Source: Ruegeria sp. AD91A (GTDB lineage: Bacteria > Pseudomonadota > Alphaproteobacteria > Rhodobacterales > Rhodobacteraceae). Taken from it: a stretch of DNA of 64,000 nt. Numbering within the stretch: position 1 is the first letter of the stretch; each line of letters begins with the position of its first letter. Of the stretch, positions 11,071 to 31,942 are shown in pieces. Made by a program: the position numbers and the translations under genes. Location: contig NZ_CP031946.1 of NCBI RefSeq assembly GCF_003443535.1, positions 2,917,001 through 2,981,000 of the forward strand, written 5' to 3'. The notes beneath the pieces are model-generated. The model ran no database searches. It was not told the DNA's origin and was given only the letters and a program-made list of their open reading frames with translations.

Positions 11071-11092
11071 ATTGAAGACATCGGAGACACCA

Positions 11093-11443
11093 ATGGCTAA
11101 AACGCGGGTCCTTGTAGAATTCGGGATGGGCACATCCCTGCGCCGGATGGACTATACCCAGGCGTCACTGCGGGCGATCAAGGATGCGCTTTGGCACAAC
11201 TCGGTCAACATGGCGGAACTGTTCGGGTTCCCGAAAGAGGCGATGATCATTGATGCCGAAATTGGGGTTCAGCAACCGGATCAGGTGGACATCGACGCGC
11301 TGAAGGCTGTCTTCCCCTACGGTCAGCCGAACATAACAATCACAAAAGGGGGATTGGACATCGCAAAGCCCCACAGTGACGGGCACACGGTCATTGCCAA
11401 CGCCGCCCTGATCGTTTCCTTCGACATGGAGCCCGCACAATGA
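11093..11443 (+). CDS. Lin0512-family conserved hypothetical protein, first of a tandem pair
   Basis: A 116-residue protein of the Lin0512 family (TIGR02058), for which I know no established function. It contains the family pattern VEFGMGTSLRRMDYTQASLRAIKDAL near the N-terminus, an IGVQQPDQVD strand in the middle and a GGLDI..P segment near the end. I chose the ATG at 11093 because a GGAG ribosome site sits 6 bases upstream; a start at 11072 would lie inside the trxA terminator trail. It overlaps its paralogue by 4 bp (ATGA), which suggests the two products are made together and may form a hetero-oligomer (inference). Confidence 0.8.
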   Translation: MAKTRVLVEFGMGTSLRRMDYTQASLRAIKDALWHNSVNMAELFGFPKEAMIIDAEIGVQQPDQVDIDALKAVFPYGQPNITITKGGLDIAKPHSDGHTVIANAALIVSFDMEPAQ

Positions 11444-11802
11444 GTGAAAAACGCATCATTCTGGAGATGGGAGCGGGAAATGACCTGTACGGCCAGGACT
11501 ATACCAAGGCAGCCCGCCGCGCGGTGCAGGATGCCTTGCACCATTCCTCCATCACGTTGTTTTCGAAACTGGGGATTGATCATTCCGAAATGCGTGTCAG
11601 CGTCACGATCGGCGTGCAGGATCCTGAACAGGTGGATTGCGGCCTGGTAGCTTCTGACCTGCCGCGGGGCAGGGCCGAGGTTCGCGCAGTCAAAGGTGGG
11701 CTTGACGTTGTCGATGAAGAAGCGGGTACGCGGCACGTGGTTGCTACCGCGGCGATCGAGGCTTTTCTGCCTGATCTTTCCGGAAAATACGTTCGAAGCT
11801 GA
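11440..11802 (+). CDS. Lin0512-family conserved hypothetical protein, second of a tandem pair
   Basis: A 120-residue paralogue of the preceding gene. The same landmarks line up: EMGAGNDLYGQDYTKAARRAVQDAL, IGVQDPEQVD and KGGLDVVD. It is translationally coupled to its neighbour through ATGA. The function of this family is not known to me; the size suggests a small soluble oligomeric enzyme or binding protein. The stop is followed by a hairpin that probably ends transcription in both directions. Confidence 0.8.
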   Translation: MSEKRIILEMGAGNDLYGQDYTKAARRAVQDALHHSSITLFSKLGIDHSEMRVSVTIGVQDPEQVDCGLVASDLPRGRAEVRAVKGGLDVVDEEAGTRHVVATAAIEAFLPDLSGKYVRS

Positions 11803-22739: not shown

Positions 22740-23569
22740 GCCATCGCCGCCGCACGCGCATCAGCATCAACTTCAGGGCGCACGCCGAACCAGCGTTCGA
22801 AACCGGGTACTGCCTGGTGCAACAACATGCCCAGCCCATCGACTGCGGTGCACCCTGCCTGTTCTGCGGTTTGCAACAGGCGGGTTTTCAAAGGCACATA
22901 AACCAGATCTGTCACCACGGCACCGGGCTGCAACCCATCGAGCGGAACCCGCAATTCCGGTTGGCCCTGCATTCCCAACGAGGTCGTGTTTACCACGAGC
23001 TCTGCGTTTTCGATGACATTTCCGGCCTGAACCCAATCCACCACGCGGATGCGTTGACCGAATTCCTCTTTCAAATGATCCGCACGGGCGCGGGTTCGGT
23101 TGGTCAGCAGGATTTCCGGCACACCAGCGTCAGACAGCGCTTGCAGAACGGCGCGAGCGGCCCCGCCGGCCCCGAACACAACAGCCGGCCCGTCCTTTGC
23201 ATTCCAGTCCGGTGCACCATTGCGAAGATTCTCCATGAACCCGTACCCGTCTGTGTTGTCTGCATGGATTGAGCCATCTTCACGAAACACCAGAGTGTTC
23301 GCAGCACCTATCACCGTTGCGCGGTCAGACGCATGATCGGCGATCTTCAAGGCGGCTTCTTTGTGGGGGACAGTGACATTGGCGCCGACGAAACCCGCCT
23401 TGGGCAGGGTGCGTAGCACAGCTTCCAGATCGACGGGTGCCACATCCATCGGAATGTAATGACCGGCAAGACCATATGTTTTCAGCCAATGACCATGCAG
23501 TTTGGGGGAACGTGAGTGACCAATGGGATGTCCAATAACTCCGGCCAATGGAACCCGATAGTCCGTCAT
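22736..23569 (-). CDS. aroE: Shikimate dehydrogenase (NADP+)
   Basis: A 277-residue AroE, which reduces 3-dehydroshikimate in aromatic amino acid synthesis. Substrate motifs are IGHSRSPKLH (residues 15-24) and NVTVPHKE with the catalytic Lys near residue 69. The NADP site is FGAGGAARAVLQAL near residue 132, and GLGMLLHQA lies at the C-terminus. It overlaps both maf and coaE by 4 bp. Confidence 0.95.
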   Translation of the reverse strand: MTDYRVPLAGVIGHPIGHSRSPKLHGHWLKTYGLAGHYIPMDVAPVDLEAVLRTLPKAGFVGANVTVPHKEAALKIADHASDRATVIGAANTLVFREDGSIHADNTDGYGFMENLRNGAPDWNAKDGPAVVFGAGGAARAVLQALSDAGVPEILLTNRTRARADHLKEEFGQRIRVVDWVQAGNVIENAELVVNTTSLGMQGQPELRVPLDGLQPGAVVTDLVYVPLKTRLLQTAEQAGCTAVDGLGMLLHQAVPGFERWFGVRPEVDADARAAAMA

Positions 23570-24165
23570 TGATCAATTACCCCTTTGACAGCCAGAAAGT
23601 TGAGCAGCTCCAACAGGGGCATACCCAAAACGTTAAAATAGTCGCCGTCAATGGTGGCGAACAGGCGGACACCTTCTTCTTCCAGCTTATAGGCTCCGAC
23701 AGCATGTCGGATACTGTCCCAGTTTCGCGCAACATAGTCTAACAGATAGGCGTCGGAACTGGCCCGCATCCGCAACCGCACCTGTCCCACATGCCGCCAG
23801 ATCGGCTCACCATTCTGATAGATCACGGCTGCGGACAAAAGCATGTGCCGCTTGCCTCGCATGGCTTTCAGCTGGTCCAGCGCCTGTTCGGGGGATTCCG
23901 GTTTCGACAGCAACTGGCCGTCAAAATCCAGAACCTGATCGCACCCCAGAACCATAGCTCCGGGATTTTTGTCACTGACCTTCCGCGCTTTCATTTCAGC
24001 GAGCGTGTCGGCAATATCCCGTGGTGTTGCGTTTTCAGCCAGCAAGGCGCGTTTGGCCGTCTCTTCATCCACGCGCGCGGTTTGTACCACGAACGGTACA
24101 CCTGCATTTTCAAGCAGCTGCGCGCGAATAGCGGACCCGGAAGCAAGAAGAATGGGGACAGACAT
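23566..24165 (-). CDS. Maf/YceF-family nucleotide pyrophosphatase
   Basis: A 199-residue Maf-fold house-cleaning pyrophosphatase with LLASGSAIRAQLLENAG at residues 6-22, CDQVLDFDGQLLSKP near residue 75, and a Lys/Asp-rich active site. Members hydrolyse dTTP/UTP or m7GTP. The sequence resembles the YceF-like group common next to aroE in alphaproteobacteria, but the exact substrate cannot be told here. It is the first gene of the leftward operon, and its start borders the proposed origin. Confidence 0.9.
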   Translation of the reverse strand: MSVPILLASGSAIRAQLLENAGVPFVVQTARVDEETAKRALLAENATPRDIADTLAEMKARKVSDKNPGAMVLGCDQVLDFDGQLLSKPESPEQALDQLKAMRGKRHMLLSAAVIYQNGEPIWRHVGQVRLRMRASSDAYLLDYVARNWDSIRHAVGAYKLEEEGVRLFATIDGDYFNVLGMPLLELLNFLAVKGVIDQ

Positions 24166-24554
24166 GTGGAAAACCCCGTGCGCAAATCATTGAGAGTTCA
24201 GGGGTGCTTTGTATGGTTTTCCGGTTGACACGCAACCCCGGGGATTTCGCGACAGAGATCCCCGAGTCGCTCAAATCCCATCCAGTCCGGACAAGGATAA
24301 GTCAGTTTCTCTGGAAAACCTCGATATCCCAAATTCTCCTACCAGTTATCCCCAAGTGGAATAAGGAGCGCCGTTATTAACATGTTGATTTTAATCCATA
24401 AAAACATAAATCAACAGAATCGACCGAAAAATGCCGTGTTCTGTCCACTTGGGGAAAACACATGTGTAAAAAAGTAATCCACGGATTTTGCTCACTCTAC
24501 AAAACCATCATCCTTTTTCTTTTCATATTTTTTTATTAGGGAGGGTTCCGAGCA
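24166..24554. other. Proposed chromosomal replication origin (oriC)
   Basis: This 389-bp gap is the longest non-coding stretch in the window. DnaA-box-like 9-mers seen by eye: 24165-24173 (minus, TTTTCCACA, one mismatch to TTATCCACA), 24346-24354 (plus, TTATCCCCA, one mismatch), 24463-24471 (minus, TTTTACACA, fits TTWTNCACA), 24450-24458 (minus, TTTTCCCCA, two mismatches) and 24475-24483 (plus, TAATCCACG, two mismatches). Two AT-rich tracts, 24374-24420 and 24500-24538, could serve as unwinding elements. Genes point away on both sides (maf left, hemJ-rho-mnmE right), and parAB with parS sites lies 3-8 kb away. Origins in this class often lie near maf, hem genes and rho. The function is inferred. 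Confidence 0.7.
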
Positions 24555-25019
24555 ATGCCTGGAGCCAATATGACCGATCTTCTTTTCACGCTGTATCCGT
24601 GGGTGAAGTCACTCCATATCATGGCCGTGATCTCGTGGATGGCAGGCCTGTTCTATCTGCCCAGATTGTTTGTCTATCACGTTGAGAAAGCTCAGGCCGT
24701 CGATGGCGCACAGGAAATTTTCTTTGAAATGGAAGAAAAGCTGCTGCGTGTGATCATGAGCCCGGCGATGATCGTTGCGTGGGTCTGTGGCTTGTTCATG
24801 GTGTTTACGCCGGGCATCGTGGGATGGGATTGGTCCTGGCCCTGGGTCAAGGGCGCTGCCGTGATCGGCATGACATGGTTTCATCACTGGTTGATGGCGC
24901 GACGCAAGGATTTCCTGGAAGGGCGAAACAAGCTCACTGGGCGGCAGTTTCGCATGATGAACGAGGTCCCGACCGTTTTGATGGTTGCCATCGTTCTGGC
25001 GGTCGTTCTGAAGTTCTGA
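24555..25019 (+). CDS. hemJ: Protoporphyrinogen IX oxidase HemJ
   Basis: A 154-residue integral membrane protein with about four helices. It carries the HemJ landmarks HIMAVISWMAGLFYLPRLFVYH near residues 22-43, EEKLLRVIMSPAM, and GRQFRMMNEVPTVLMV near the end. HemJ replaces HemG/HemY in most alphaproteobacteria for oxidising protoporphyrinogen to protoporphyrin. GGGAGG lies about 10 bases before the ATG at 24555, which favours it over the in-frame ATG at 24570. hemE and hemC, often nearby, are not in this window. Confidence 0.92.
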   Translation: MPGANMTDLLFTLYPWVKSLHIMAVISWMAGLFYLPRLFVYHVEKAQAVDGAQEIFFEMEEKLLRVIMSPAMIVAWVCGLFMVFTPGIVGWDWSWPWVKGAAVIGMTWFHHWLMARRKDFLEGRNKLTGRQFRMMNEVPTVLMVAIVLAVVLKF

Positions 25020-25141
25020 GGGCCTGTTTGACTCCGCGCAGCGCTGAGCTTATGTAGGGATCAACACGCCCGTCCGGGCGGCGTATCTTCCGTTCTGAAA
25101 TTCCACTTCGTGCCGCAGTCTCAGCGGCGAAGGTTTGTATA

Positions 25142-26413
25142 ATGACAACTGAATCTCTGAATCTGGCCGATCTCAAGGCCAAAAGCCCAAAAGATCTTCT
25201 GGCGATGGCCGAAGAACTGGAAATCGAAAACGCCTCGACCATGCGAAAAGGCGAGATGATGTTCCAGATCCTGCGCGAACGCGCGGATGAGGGCTGGACC
25301 GTTGGTGGCGATGGCGTGCTTGAGGTTCTTCAGGACGGCTTCGGTTTCCTGCGCTCGCCCGAGGCGAACTATCTGCCGGGTCCGGATGACATCTATGTTT
25401 CGCCTGAAATGATCCGCCTGCACTCGCTGCGGACCGGAGATACGGTTGAAGGTGATATCAAGGCACCTGATGAGAACGAACGTTACTTTGCGCTGACCAA
25501 AGTTACCAAGATCAATTTTGAAGAACCGGAAAAAGCCAAGCACAAGATTGCTTTTGACAACCTGACGCCGCTGTATCCGGACGAGCGTTTGAAGATGGAG
25601 ATCGAGGATCCCACCATCAAGGATAAATCGGCCCGTGTTATTGATCTGGTCTCGCCGATCGGTAAAGGCCAGCGTTCTCTGATCGTGGCACCGCCGAGGA
25701 CCGGTAAAACGGTGATCCTGCAGAACATCGCGCATTCGATCGAACAGAACCACCCAGAGTGCTATCTGATCGTCCTGCTGATCGACGAACGCCCGGAAGA
25801 GGTGACGGACATGCAGCGTTCGGTGAAGGGTGAGGTTGTGTCTTCGACCTTTGATGAACCCGCGACCCGCCACGTGGCCGTGTCGGAAATGGTCATCGAA
25901 AAAGCCAAGCGTTTGGTTGAGCATAAACGAGATGTTGTCATTCTTCTCGATTCGATCACAAGACTTGGTAGGGCGTTTAACACCGTGGTGCCATCCTCGG
26001 GTAAAGTTCTGACCGGTGGTGTGGATGCGAATGCTCTGCAACGGCCCAAGCGGTTCTTTGGTGCTGCGCGGAATATCGAAGAAGGTGGCTCACTGACCAT
26101 CATCGCCACCGCGCTGATCGACACCGGCAGTCGGATGGACGAGGTCATCTTCGAAGAATTCAAAGGTACAGGTAACTCGGAAATCGTTCTTGATCGCAAG
26201 ATTGCGGACAAACGCGTGTTCCCGGCGATCGACATCCTCAAATCCGGCACGCGGAAAGAGGAACTGCTGGTCGACAAAGGCGATCTGGCCAAGACCTTCG
26301 TTCTGCGCCGTATCCTCAACCCGATGGGCACGACTGACGCGATCGAGTTCCTGTTGTCCAAGTTGAAGCAGACCAAGACCAACAGTGAGTTCTTCGATTC
26401 GATGAACACCTGA
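25142..26413 (+). CDS. rho: Transcription termination factor Rho
   Basis: A 423-residue hexameric RNA-dependent ATPase. The N-terminal region has the Rho_N helix bundle ([21 protein letters not shown]) and the OSB fold ([23 protein letters not shown]). Walker A (PPRTGKT) is near residues 183-189, Walker B ([16 protein letters not shown]) near residue 260, and the Q-loop and R-loop regions ([16 protein letters not shown]) are present. It stands 122 bp behind hemJ; an inverted repeat (CGCCC/GGGCG at 25069-25082) lies in that gap. Rho next to the origin is typical here. Confidence 0.96.
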
Positions 26414-27734: not shown

Positions 27735-29612
27735 GTGTTTCACGTGAAACATTCGAAGTTTGATGTCATCATCATTGGCGCAGGCCATGCCGGAACTGAG
27801 GCCGCTCATGCATCAGCAAGGATGGGCGCAACAACTGCACTGGTGACGTTGTCTGCAACAGACATCGGCGTTATGTCCTGCAATCCGGCGATTGGAGGTT
27901 TGGGAAAGGGCCATCTTGTGCGTGAGATTGACGCCTTGGATGGCGTCATGGGTCGTGTGGCGGATCAGGCGGGCATACAGTTTCGTTTGTTGAACCGTCG
28001 AAAAGGGCCCGCCGTACAGGGGCCGAGAACGCAGGAAGATCGCGCCCTGTATCGGCTTGCTATGCAACAGGAAACAGAGAAACAGGATAACCTGTCCGTT
28101 GTTGTCGGAGAGGTTGTCGATTTTCTAATGATCGGTGAGAAGGTTGCAGGTGTTGCTCTTTCTGATGGATCAGAACTTTCTGCGCGCGCCGTTATCCTGA
28201 CCTCCGGTACATTTCTAAGGGGTGTCATTCACATAGGTGACGTGTCTCGTCCCGGTGGGAGAATGGGGGATCGACCTTCCGTCAAACTGGCTGAACGGTT
28301 GGAAAGATACAATCTTCCCATGGGACGATTGAAAACCGGGACACCGCCGCGCCTGGATGGTCGGAGCATTGATTGGTCGGATCTTGAAAGGCAGGACGGC
28401 GACGATGAGCCAACCCTGTTTTCTTTTATGTCTCAATCCGTTGTCGCGCCCCAGATTTCCTGCGGAATTACACACACAAATGCGCGAACACATGAGATCA
28501 TCGCTGCGAATCTTTCGAAATCCGCGATGTATGGCGGTCGCATTGATGGAGTAGGCCCGCGCTATTGTCCATCGATTGAAGACAAGATCGTACGATTCGC
28601 GGATAAGGAATCGCATCAAATCTTCCTTGAGCCCGAAGGGGTCAATGATCACACGATCTATCCGAACGGTATCTCGACGTCATTGCCGCAAGACGTTCAA
28701 CTGGACTATGTGCGATCGATTAAGGGATTGGAGAATGCAGATATTCTGCAACCAGGATATGCAATCGAATACGACTATGTTGATCCGCGCGTCCTGAGCG
28801 CTTCTTTATCCTTGCCAACTGTTCCCGGACTATATCTAGCGGGCCAGATAAATGGGACCACAGGATATGAGGAAGCCGCAGCTCAGGGCATGGTGGCCGG
28901 CCTCAATGCGGCGTTGGAGACCCAAGGGCGAGAACCCATCCATTTTACGCGATCCGACAGTTATATTGGCGTAATGATCGATGATTTGACAACTCGAGGA
29001 GTTGCCGAACCCTACCGCATGTTCACGTCGCGTGCGGAATTCCGGCTATCTCTGCGCGCCGACAATGCTGATCAACGGCTGACACCGCTTGGTTTGGAAT
29101 TGGGGTGCGTCGGACAAGAGCGCAAAGTTCAGTTCGAAGATAAAATGCACCAACTTGAAAGCGTGAAGTCAAAGCTGACGGAACGGACTTATACACCCAA
29201 GGAAGTTCTCGCCGCCGGTATAAACGTTAATCAGGATGGAAACCGTAGGAATGGGATGGCAATTCTCGCATTCCCCGACACCTCGTTTGAAGATTTGCTG
29301 CCTCTTGTTCCTGATTTGCAGGATGTTGACTTAAAAATCAGGCTCCAGATCGAGCGGGACGCCTTGTATGCCAACTACATTGCCAGGCAAAAGCGGGACG
29401 TTGAAGCAATGAAGCGGGATGAATCCTATGTCATCCCGCATGAGTTCGACTATTTTGCTTTGGACGGCCTGTCTTCGGAGATGAAACAGAAGCTGTCGCA
29501 AGCAAAGCCTGCAAATATCGCTCAGGCAAGCCGTGTCGAGGGGGTCACGCCGGCAGCGCTGACGCTCGTTCTGGCAAAACTGCGCCGGGATCAAAGAGCT
29601 CGCCAAGCATGA
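27735..29612 (+). CDS. mnmG: tRNA uridine-34 5-carboxymethylaminomethyl modification enzyme MnmG
   Basis: A ~625-residue FAD protein, partner of MnmE. The FAD motif [10 protein letters not shown] is at residues 14-23, then [23 protein letters not shown], and the C-terminal helical MnmE-binding domain ends in [14 protein letters not shown]. The listed GTG at 27735 overlaps its own AAGGAG ribosome site, so the in-frame GTG at 27744 (spacing 8) is perhaps the real start. Both starts lie on a perfect parS palindrome, which encodes the first residues FHVKH. The stop overlaps rsmG by 4 bp. Confidence 0.96.
27736..27751. promoter_or_regulatory. parS: parS centromere site 1 (ParB binding)
   Basis: A perfect 16-bp palindrome, TGTTTCACGTGAAACA, the canonical chromosomal parS. 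It overlaps the mnmG start region about 3.3 kb from parB and 3.2 kb from the proposed oriC. Confidence 0.95.
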
Positions 29613-30229
29613 TGGTTGACTATTCGAAGTTTGAAGACCTGAATGTTTCACGTGAAACATTCGAACGCCTCACGACTTATGTTGAACTGGTGAAACATTG
29701 GAACCCAAGGATCAACCTCGTGTCGCGGAACAGCCTGGAGCATATCTGGGACCGGCATATTCTGGATTCCGTGCAAGTCTATCGGTGCGCTGACAGTTTT
29801 GACACCTGGGCGGATCTGGGAAGTGGAGGCGGGTTCCCGGGTATGGTTTGTGCTATCCTCGCCGCGGAAGAAAATCCAAGCGCCTCATTTAATATGATAG
29901 AAAGTGATCAGCGAAAATCAGCTTTCTTGCGCAACGTTGCCCGGGAATGCGGAATAAGATGCGCAGTGACTTCAAAAAGGATTGAGATGGTTGATCCTTT
30001 GGCGGTAAACATCATTTCAGCGCGTGCATTGGCTGACTTGCGTACATTATTATCCTTTTGTGACAGACATTTACACACCAACGGGACAGCATTGTTGCCC
30101 AAAGGCGCAAATTGGAAAAAAGAGATGGAAGACGCACGTGAGGAATGGAAATTCGAGGCAGAGGCGATTACAAGTTTAACTGAACCTCAAGCCGTTATCC
30201 TTAAGATATATGGAGTATCACGTGGGTGA
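29609..30229 (+). CDS. rsmG: 16S rRNA (guanine-527-N7)-methyltransferase RsmG
   Basis: A 206-residue Rossmann methyltransferase. [25 protein letters not shown] at about residues 31-55 is the family block, and the SAM motif [12 protein letters not shown] follows near residue 69. It methylates G527 of 16S rRNA; loss gives low-level streptomycin resistance in other bacteria. The start overlaps the mnmG stop (ATGATGG; the ATG at 29612 is also possible). Codons 12-18 (NVSRETF) are written by a perfect parS. The end overlaps the parA start. Confidence 0.95.
29644..29659. promoter_or_regulatory. parS: parS centromere site 2 (ParB binding), inside rsmG
   Basis: A perfect 16-bp parS (TGTTTCACGTGAAACA). 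The dyad symmetry extends to 22 bp, 29641-29662 (GAA...TTC flanks). It is coding DNA, so selection for ParB binding constrains RsmG residues NVSRETF. Confidence 0.95.
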
Positions 30230-31025
30230 TTTATCTCGACCTTCAGGGCCTCGGATAGTTGCTGTTGCCAATCAGAAGGGTGGGGTCGGGAAAACAACCA
30301 CAGCTATCAATCTTGCTGCTGGATTGGCCGAGGCCGGTTGCAGAGTTCTGGTGATTGATCTCGATCCACAAGGGAACGCTTCAACTGGTTTGGGTGTTGA
30401 AGATCGGGACTGGACAACTTATGACCTGATCCTCGACGAGGCGCCACTAGAGGCAGTGGTTCAGGAGACTGAAATTGAAGGCCTTTTCGTAGTCCCGGCC
30501 ACCGTCGATTTGAGTTCCGCCGATATTGAACTGATCTCAAACGAAAAACGCAGTTACCTTTTACATGATGCGCTGCGGCAGACAGCCATAGATGCATTTG
30601 AGTTTGATTTTGTTCTAATCGATTGCCCACCGTCCCTAAACTTGCTGACTGTAAATGCAATGGTTGCTGCACACTCGGTACTTGTGCCGTTGCAGAGTGA
30701 GTTCTTTGCCCTTGAAGGACTGTCGCAATTGATGCTGACGATTCGAGAGGTTCGCCAAACGGCGAATCCAGATCTGAGAATCGAAGGTGTTGTGTTGACC
30801 ATGTATGATAACCGCAACAACTTGTCCCGCCAGGTCGAAAAGGACGCACGTGACAATCTGGGTGAGATGGTTTTTAAAACCAAGATACCCAGAAATGTGC
30901 GGGTCAGCGAAGCGCCGTCATATGCGTTGCCGGTCTTGCAATATGACTCGGGATCGCTTGGAGCAATGGCGTATCGACATCTTGCTCGCGAGATCATGCA
31001 CAAGAACAACAAAACCGCAGCCTGA
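30222..31025 (+). CDS. parA: Chromosome partitioning ATPase ParA
   Basis: About 267 residues; the deviant Walker A KGGVGKTT is at about residues 19-26, DLDPQGNAS and VLIDCPPSLNLLTVNA (Walker B) follow, and the C-terminus is the ParA/Soj type. With ParB-parS it segregates newly replicated origins. I chose GTG 30222, which has GGAG 6 bases upstream and begins just before the conserved RIVAVANQKGG; an ATG at 30210 would add four residues. It overlaps the rsmG stop by 8 bp, giving coupling to the upstream genes. Confidence 0.95.
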   Translation: MGDLSRPSGPRIVAVANQKGGVGKTTTAINLAAGLAEAGCRVLVIDLDPQGNASTGLGVEDRDWTTYDLILDEAPLEAVVQETEIEGLFVVPATVDLSSADIELISNEKRSYLLHDALRQTAIDAFEFDFVLIDCPPSLNLLTVNAMVAAHSVLVPLQSEFFALEGLSQLMLTIREVRQTANPDLRIEGVVLTMYDNRNNLSRQVEKDARDNLGEMVFKTKIPRNVRVSEAPSYALPVLQYDSGSLGAMAYRHLAREIMHKNNKTAA

Positions 31026-31045: not shown

Positions 31046-31942
31046 ATGAGCGCCAAGAAAGCAAAATCCAGAGGGTTGGGGCGGGGCCTGTCTGCCCTTA
31101 TGGCAGATGTAAATCCTGAAGCAGAAGGTCGGGCCTCAGTGGATGCGCGCAGGCCTGATCTGAAAGTCCCGATTGAAAAGCTGAAAGCCAACCCAAACCA
31201 GCCGCGCCGCACATTCATTCCTGAGCAGCTAGACGAGCTGGCGGCATCGGTAAAGGAAAAAGGCATCATTCAGCCCCTGATCGTTCGAGCGACAGGTTCA
31301 GGAGAATATGAGATTGTCGCAGGCGAACGTCGTTGGCGCGCGGCGCAGATGGCGCAGCTGCACGATGTTCCGGTCATTGTGCGTGAATTCGATGACACGG
31401 AAGTGTTGGAAGTAGCGATTATCGAAAACATTCAACGTGCAGATCTGAACGCGGTGGAAGAGGCCGCTGGCTATAAGCAGTTGATGGATCGATTTGGGCA
31501 CACGCAGGAAAAGCTCGCTGAGGCCCTGGGCAAGAGCCGCAGCCACATTGCGAACCTTTTGCGGCTTCTGTCCTTGCCGATGGATTTGCAAGCCCTTGTT
31601 ATTGAAGGAAAATTATCTGCGGGGCACGCCAGGGCGCTGATTACGGCCGAAAATCCGTCGGAACTCGCGAAACAGATCGTCAAGGATGGCTTATCGGTGC
31701 GCGCAACCGAGGCTTTGGTCAAAAAACAGCAGCAAGGCGGCGTTGAACGATCTGCACCTCGCGCCCGAAATCTGGATGCTGGAAAGGATGCAGACACACG
31801 TGCGTTGGAAAAGGACCTGTCCGCGATCCTGGCGATGAAAGTGTCGATCAATCACAAGGCCGGAACGGAAACAGGACAAGTCGTTCTGACCTACGAGAAC
31901 CTGGATCAGCTGGACGATTTGTGCGCTAAGCTCAGCCGTTAG
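31046..31942 (+). CDS. parB: Chromosome partitioning protein ParB
   Basis: A 298-residue ParB/Spo0J CTP-dependent DNA clamp. The N-terminal basic RGLGRGLSALMAD is the ParA-contact peptide. The CTP domain contains GERRWRAAQMA at about residues 93-103, a helix-turn-helix (KLAEALGKSRSHIANLLRLL) covers about 155-175, and the C-terminal dimerisation domain ends in LDDLCAKLSR. A good AGGAGGG ribosome site precedes it. Its targets, two perfect parS sites, lie just upstream in the same gene string. Its last 11 bp overlap a convergent DUF454 gene. Confidence 0.96.
   Translation: MSAKKAKSRGLGRGLSALMADVNPEAEGRASVDARRPDLKVPIEKLKANPNQPRRTFIPEQLDELAASVKEKGIIQPLIVRATGSGEYEIVAGERRWRAAQMAQLHDVPVIVREFDDTEVLEVAIIENIQRADLNAVEEAAGYKQLMDRFGHTQEKLAEALGKSRSHIANLLRLLSLPMDLQALVIEGKLSAGHARALITAENPSELAKQIVKDGLSVRATEALVKKQQQGGVERSAPRARNLDAGKDADTRALEKDLSAILAMKVSINHKAGTETGQVVLTYENLDQLDDLCAKLSR

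Follow-up and report, generated by a model that had tools for sequence, protein, structure and literature searches.

A candidate chromosomal replication origin in the maf/hemJ intergenic gap of Ruegeria sp. AD91A and its DnaA-trio-like triplets

Origins related to the one considered here have been described at the level of the family as well as that of the class. The oriCs of 101 Rhodobacteraceae were predicted earlier by Ori-Finder on the basis of skew, DnaA boxes and parAB (PMC6699656), and the junction of hemE and COG1806 is the proven origin of Caulobacter (PMC1914354). The opening of the origin has been worked out in Bacillus subtilis, where Asn187 of DnaA reads the middle adenine of the DnaA-trios, Arg202 and Glu228 read the guanine, and opening suffers from a T but not from a C in the middle position (PMC10721633). 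In the survey of the B. subtilis type of origin element (BUS), 15% of origins came out without trios, and its authors suspected trios that lack the middle adenine; Alphaproteobacteria appear in a figure of that paper, and the predictions for the class are in its supplement (PMC8287927). Among the literature matches listed, none dealt with DnaA-trios in Alphaproteobacteria; we do not claim that none is in print.

The DNA analysed here, called the window, is the whole stretch of 64,000 nucleotides C1:2917001-2981000 from the main chromosome of Ruegeria sp. AD91A (C1, 3,662,296 bp; the second contig, C2, has 743,267 bp). The original prediction placed the chromosomal origin in the gap between maf and hemJ (Table 1). 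Our computations support this notion through the skew zone, parS, the box cluster, the conservation of the gap, the persistence of its right-end module and the likeness to part of the hemE loci of the class, and we consider the gap 24166-24554 to be very probably the oriC of the main chromosome, with a probability of about 0.9. The position (to a zone), the box cluster, the AT-richness, the conservation and the independence from hemJ are computed results. Start codons bound the gap on both sides (maf on the minus strand at 24165, hemJ on the plus strand at 24555), so that the flanking genes diverge as noted, and the closest relatives of HemJ are Ruegeria proteins with identity up to 95%. Rightward from hemJ the gene order is rho, mnmE, mnmG, rsmG, parA, parB, and this string was indeed found together with nearby parS sites, two of them perfect. 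The claim that no other gene-free stretch of the window exceeds 300 bp is credible, as all four other gaps that were inspected hold an ORF of a Pfam family (thioredoxin, DUF1127, Tim44 and SCP2). Searches of the window with Rfam (gathering thresholds) and for tRNAs gave no matches, and positions 24100-26000 had no match in plasmid records (near-mode search). Elsewhere in the window, at 11072-11802, a tandem pair of small-family genes was observed, both belonging to Lin0512 (PF09585).

Table 1. Coordinates of the candidate origin and of its neighbouring features in the window.
Feature	Position	Strand	Remarks
Candidate oriC	24166..24554	.	389 bp, maf/hemJ intergenic gap
maf, left flank	23566..24165	-	
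hemJ, right flank	24555..25019	+	
DnaA-box-like TTTTCCACA	24165..24173	-	conserved site; overlaps maf start; aligned GTGGAAAACC identical in 54/80 rows
DnaA-box-like TTATCCTTG, weak	24292..24300	-	conserved site; 3 mismatches, outside the 8 counted
DnaA-box-like TTTTCCAGA	24310..24318	-	further site, less conserved
Inverted repeat	24345..24459	.	16-nt arms 24345-24360 and 24444-24459; covers two boxes
DnaA-box-like TTATCCCCA	24346..24354	+	conserved site; identical in 45/80 rows; TTATCCACA in 11/80
DnaA-box-like TTATTAACA	24374..24382	+	further site, less conserved
DnaA-box-like TAATCCATA	24392..24400	+	further site, less conserved
DnaA-box-like TTTTCCCCA	24450..24458	-	conserved site; identical in 51/80 rows
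DnaA-box-like TTTTACACA	24463..24471	-	further site, less conserved
DnaA-box-like TAATCCACG	24475..24483	+	conserved site; points at triplet tract; identical in 45/80 rows
Spacer, last box to triplets	24484..24496	.	13 nt in 64/80 rows, 14 nt in 16/80
C-periodic triplets	24497..24514	-	CTA CAA AAC CAT CAT CCT on +; DnaA-trio-like 3'-GNN-5' on -
AT-rich tract	24515..24541	.	probable first strand-opening site
Perfect parS	27736..27751	+	
Perfect parS	29644..29659	+	
parA	30210-31025	+	
parB	31046-31942	+	

The gap is distinguished by a local cluster of DnaA-box-like sites. Eight sites with at most two mismatches to TTATCCACA lie in 24161-24554, against 1.42 expected after dinucleotide shuffling, and in 1000 shuffles of the gap a count of eight never came up. 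This is the highest count for a 394-bp stretch in 1,148,365 scanned bases of the genome, which include 2.860-3.001 Mb in slightly overlapping pieces; the next best stretch has six. Two boxes one mismatch from the consensus had been noted in the gap and are present (TTTTCCACA and TTATCCCCA); over the whole window such boxes occur at chance level (9 vs 7.98 expected), therefore only the local cluster is informative. The gap contains no perfect box, and perfect boxes were rejected as a genome-wide origin signal, since the 18 of them in the genome are unclustered and equal in number to the backwards-read control. The AT-richness noted there stood equally well: when the 64 kb were ranked by overlapping 100-bp windows in 10-bp steps, the eight most AT-rich ones all fell in the gap. 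The element TTGACACGCAA at 24225-24235 is near-invariant in Ruegeria gaps and poorly kept outside, and it may serve maf or the origin as a promoter element.

The arrangement is retained well beyond the genome under study. In 79 of 80 hemJ loci of relatives, all taken from named records, maf is divergent to hemJ across a gap of 344-412 bp, the remaining locus (L077) being cut by a contig end. The alignment of these gaps has 80 rows, namely the window and 79 relatives (54 rows Ruegeria-like, 26 non-Ruegeria), and five box-like sites are conserved in it, as marked in Table 1. In 109 relatives the mean number of boxes per gap is 4.7 for 53 Ruegeria-like, 6.3 for 26 other hemJ-bearing and 5.8 for 30 genomes without HemJ beside maf, whereas 1.4-1.6 are expected. 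Conservation is strongest at the right end of the gap, which consists of TAATCCACG, the 13-nt spacer, CTACAAAACCATCATCC and an AT tract ending in TTTTTATTAGG.

It is this right-end module that suggests how the origin could be opened. In the mechanism that we infer, DnaA would occupy a cluster of some five boxes, conserved but for the most part imperfect, and a DnaA-ATP filament would start at the rightmost, right-pointing box and cross the spacer onto the lower-strand triplets. The filament would open the AT tract adjoining hemJ, helicase loading and bidirectional forks would follow, and ParA/ParB would segregate the new origins via the parS sites 3-5 kb rightward. The filament step, with its order of box, spacer, triplets and AT tract, is plausible, and we give it about even odds.

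The triplets CTACAAAACCATCATC resemble DnaA-trios, but most have no middle adenine. CTA, which comes first, is a classical trio (3'-GAT-5' on the lower strand), the later ones such as CAA and CAT correspond to 3'-GTT or GTA, and, read in the C-phase, one of the six window triplets has the middle adenine. In the 26 non-Ruegeria rows C takes 81-100% at 24497, 24500, 24506, 24509 and 24512 and 38% at 24503, and no G occurs on the plus strand from 24497 to 24529 in any of the 80 rows. As an uninterrupted C-periodic run the tract of the window itself is not significant (p 0.98), so the statement on phase is drawn from the alignment. Runs scoring at least 4 were found in 19 gaps of a second set of 119, against none on the other strand; this set comprises 80 hemJ-bearing gaps, 30 without HemJ beside maf and 9 class-level gaps that partly repeat the same genomes, and among the 19 the runs of L194 and L196 lie outside the module while L180 and L181 share one run.

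A comparable picture is seen before hemE in some other families of the class. A search for hemE in 115 class genomes gave a match in 98; the best 30 loci were taken and, after removal of two from the family of the studied genome, 28 were compared. The gene upstream of hemE is divergent in 27 of them; in 26 it is related to Kinase-PPPase, and the remaining locus has maf alone. The query protein for Kinase-PPPase was assigned to PF03618, which corresponds to COG1806, and hemE to URO-D. The hemE/Kinase-PPPase junction adjoins the same maf-aroE-coaE genes in these relatives, and on the hemE side several of the gaps close with a DnaA box and C-periodic triplets after it, such as TTATCCACAGCCATCCACCACCACTACCACCACC. 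In 8 of the 27 gaps triplet runs scoring at least 4 lie on the strand that points to hemE, the opposite strand having none in any of the 27; the base after C in these runs is A in 26 and T in 12 cases, under a scoring that admits only A or T.

One could argue that the gap is the origin and yet that the triplets are not bound by DnaA, in which case opening would come from loop-back binding of the T-rich strand or from AT-richness alone and the C-periodicity would be used otherwise. This alternative, which differs from the filament reading only in the opening step, is a possible one, to which we give somewhat less than an even chance. The uninterrupted runs are clear only in the minority of gaps counted above, one possible IHF site, which matches a short consensus, lies at 24390, and the published loose trio rule, which we rejected as evidence because it does not discriminate, holds for the gap but also for 156 of 500 shuffles of it. 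However, over the 18 nt of the tract the frequency of C in the 26 non-Ruegeria rows is 79% at in-phase positions and 18% and 4% in the two other phases, and the 54 Ruegeria-like rows give 83% against 17% and 16%; moreover, one relative (L183, genome G095) has a classical CTACTACTAC run at the matching place. This run lies in its maf/rho gap, 3 nt past the box CTATCCACA, where the relatives have CAT/CAA repeats.

When the DnaA of the studied genome was aligned to 8btg, the equivalents of residues 187, 202 and 228 were Tyr, Lys and Glu. The 187 position in 44 other alphaproteobacterial DnaAs sampled is Tyr in 39, Phe in 3 and His in 2, whereas 18 DnaAs taken from other classes of the phylum, each from a different family, have Ala (5), Thr (5), Gln (3), Asn (3) or Ser (2) there; thus the residue is aromatic in 44/44 of the former and in 0/18 of the latter, and the other classes vary at this place as well. 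Glu228 is invariant in all 62, and the 202 position is Lys in 44/44 alphaproteobacterial DnaAs and in 15 of the 18 others. The sampled Alphaproteobacteria look like a case of trios without the middle adenine, accompanied by a DnaA change at the matching residue. It could be, and we put this forward tentatively from the sequences, that Alphaproteobacteria use a recoded DnaA-trio in which the guanine contacted by Glu228 is kept and the middle adenine is largely lost, in step with the replacement of Asn187 by an aromatic residue. If true, the class would open its origins by 3'-GNN-5' repeats (GAT, GTT, GTA, GTG) and not by 3'-GAT-5'. The match between residue and repeat is one class-level contrast and so correlates with a single evolutionary event and not with many; it is a lead and not a proof. 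Genome G095 combines its classical CTACTACTAC run with Tyr at 187, which argues against a strict coupling of residue and repeat. That the class has a version of the trio code of its own is an idea open to direct testing.

The relatives without HemJ beside maf allow the module to be separated from its neighbouring gene. Among 149 genomes of the order, all of which were placed in the family of the studied genome, 33 had at best a weak match to HemJ, and 30 of these were examined: hemJ was found at none of the 30 loci, and maf and rho diverge in each across 496-601 bp. When the hemJ-bearing gaps were made into a profile of the module, 28 of these 30 loci gave a match with unchanged position and strand; 14 of the matches have E<0.01, the other 14 are weak (E 0.023-8.6), and L183 and L185 gave none. 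As a control the sequences were reversed, which yielded two matches at E 6.4 and 7.7. Past the module, within 230 nt of rho, TTGAC is present in all 30 gaps and is plausibly a separate promoter. The module is kept where HemJ is absent beside maf, therefore it is not the promoter of hemJ, and this candidate role was rejected.

The same data bear on the reading in which the gap is merely a regulated divergent promoter of maf and hemJ, for example one controlled by DnaA, and the true origin lies elsewhere in 2.88-2.94 Mb. We regard this as quite unlikely. It would be in line with the absence of a sharp local skew minimum, with the promoter-like TTGACACGCAA kept in Ruegeria, with the ribosome-site-like AGGGAGG before hemJ and with the box that overlaps the start of maf. 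However, the best-conserved module persists where rho is the next gene and a separate TTGAC lies nearer to it, a similar arrangement stands before hemE in some other families, and no other 394-bp stretch in the 1.15 Mb scanned exceeds six boxes.

The origin reading of the gap also agrees with its place on the chromosome, although at a coarser scale. GC skew was sampled in 57 pieces, of which 54 were 20-kb stretches and three made up the window, and the cumulative curve was interpolated; one of the stretches of the chromosome, C1:2840001-2860000 (L122), contains 2500 bases given as N. The sampled curve has its minimum at ~2.930 Mb and its maximum at ~1.076 Mb, and at a resolution of ~60 kb the minimum is ~11 kb from the candidate gap at 2.941 Mb and the maximum about half a chromosome away. 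The expectation that the skew minimum falls at the gap thus held for the sampled curve, but locally there is no sharp minimum: the cumulative skew at fourfold sites has its lowest value, -231, near 2.880 Mb, has risen to -48 at 18 kb of the window, falls again to -92 at the gap and reaches 297 at 58 kb, and the raw cumulative skew is lower at the left edge of the window (12) than at 24500 (37). Skew therefore places the origin in a zone of ~60 kb (about 2.88-2.94 Mb) and not at the gap itself. The minima of the relatives G002 and G141 are ~231 and ~260 kb off under sparse sampling and that of G125 is 1,325 kb off in a scrambled curve, so the skew of these three was rejected as independent confirmation, its support being weak or absent. 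In G125, a single contig, the sampled skew flips sign repeatedly round the chromosome, as if heavily rearranged. As a marker of the terminus, dif was sought with two patterns, neither of which matched C1; a dif-like site was observed on the 743-kb contig C2 at 280296-280319. Perfect parS sites (TGTTTCACGTGAAACA) occur exactly twice in the genome, 3.2 and 5.1 kb from the gap, and with at most two mismatches there are five, four of them within ~26 kb of the gap, the backwards-read control giving one site.

In other bacterial lineages the origin is flanked by dnaA, and dnaA and hemE do lie outside the window, as had been stated (202 kb and ~395 kb from the gap, hemE at C1:2544731). An origin at dnaA (C1 2.738 Mb) or, by analogy with lineages where hemE flanks it (PMC1914354), at hemE (2.545 Mb) is highly improbable here, as the sampled skew still falls from both to ~2.93 Mb save for a single piece at 2.64 Mb with a small positive value, no box of at most one mismatch was found in the hemE direction within 600 bp upstream of that gene, the seven sites of at most two mismatches round the dnaA start are scattered over ~1.8 kb, and both genes are more than 200 kb from a perfect parS.

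The maf/hemJ gap is thus a concrete conserved element, with its position kept in Ruegeria and relatives, and is amenable to cloning and assay. The published Rhodobacteraceae predictions, made at the same family level, used the same criteria, namely the skew minimum, the local GC minimum and nearby parAB, and the present analysis adds to them the conserved boxes and the right-end module (PMC6699656). Like Cori of Caulobacter crescentus and the Rickettsia ori (PMC1914354), it is intergenic, ~400 bp long and AT-rich, and it bears DnaA boxes. Contrastingly, it is flanked by maf and hemJ (in relatives by maf and rho) and not by hemE and COG1806, and it lacks the CtrA site TTAA-N7-TTAA of Cori, having one TTAAC half-site. 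With the B. subtilis BUS (PMC8287927, PMC10721633) it shares the co-oriented box, the box-proximal 3'-GAT-5' and the AT tract beyond. A BUS box has at most two mismatches, is co-oriented with the trios and is separated from them by a spacer of at most 16 nt; TAATCCACG is such a box, and its spacer of 13 nt falls within the published peak of 10-13. A BUS is further expected to have at least three trios with a middle adenine. The later Ruegeria triplets differ from those of B. subtilis in that most of them are 3'-GTT or GTA and have lost the middle adenine, and Ruegeria DnaA has Tyr and not Asn at the adenine-reading place. This comparison raises the testable question of how far the origin-opening rule of Bacillus reaches.
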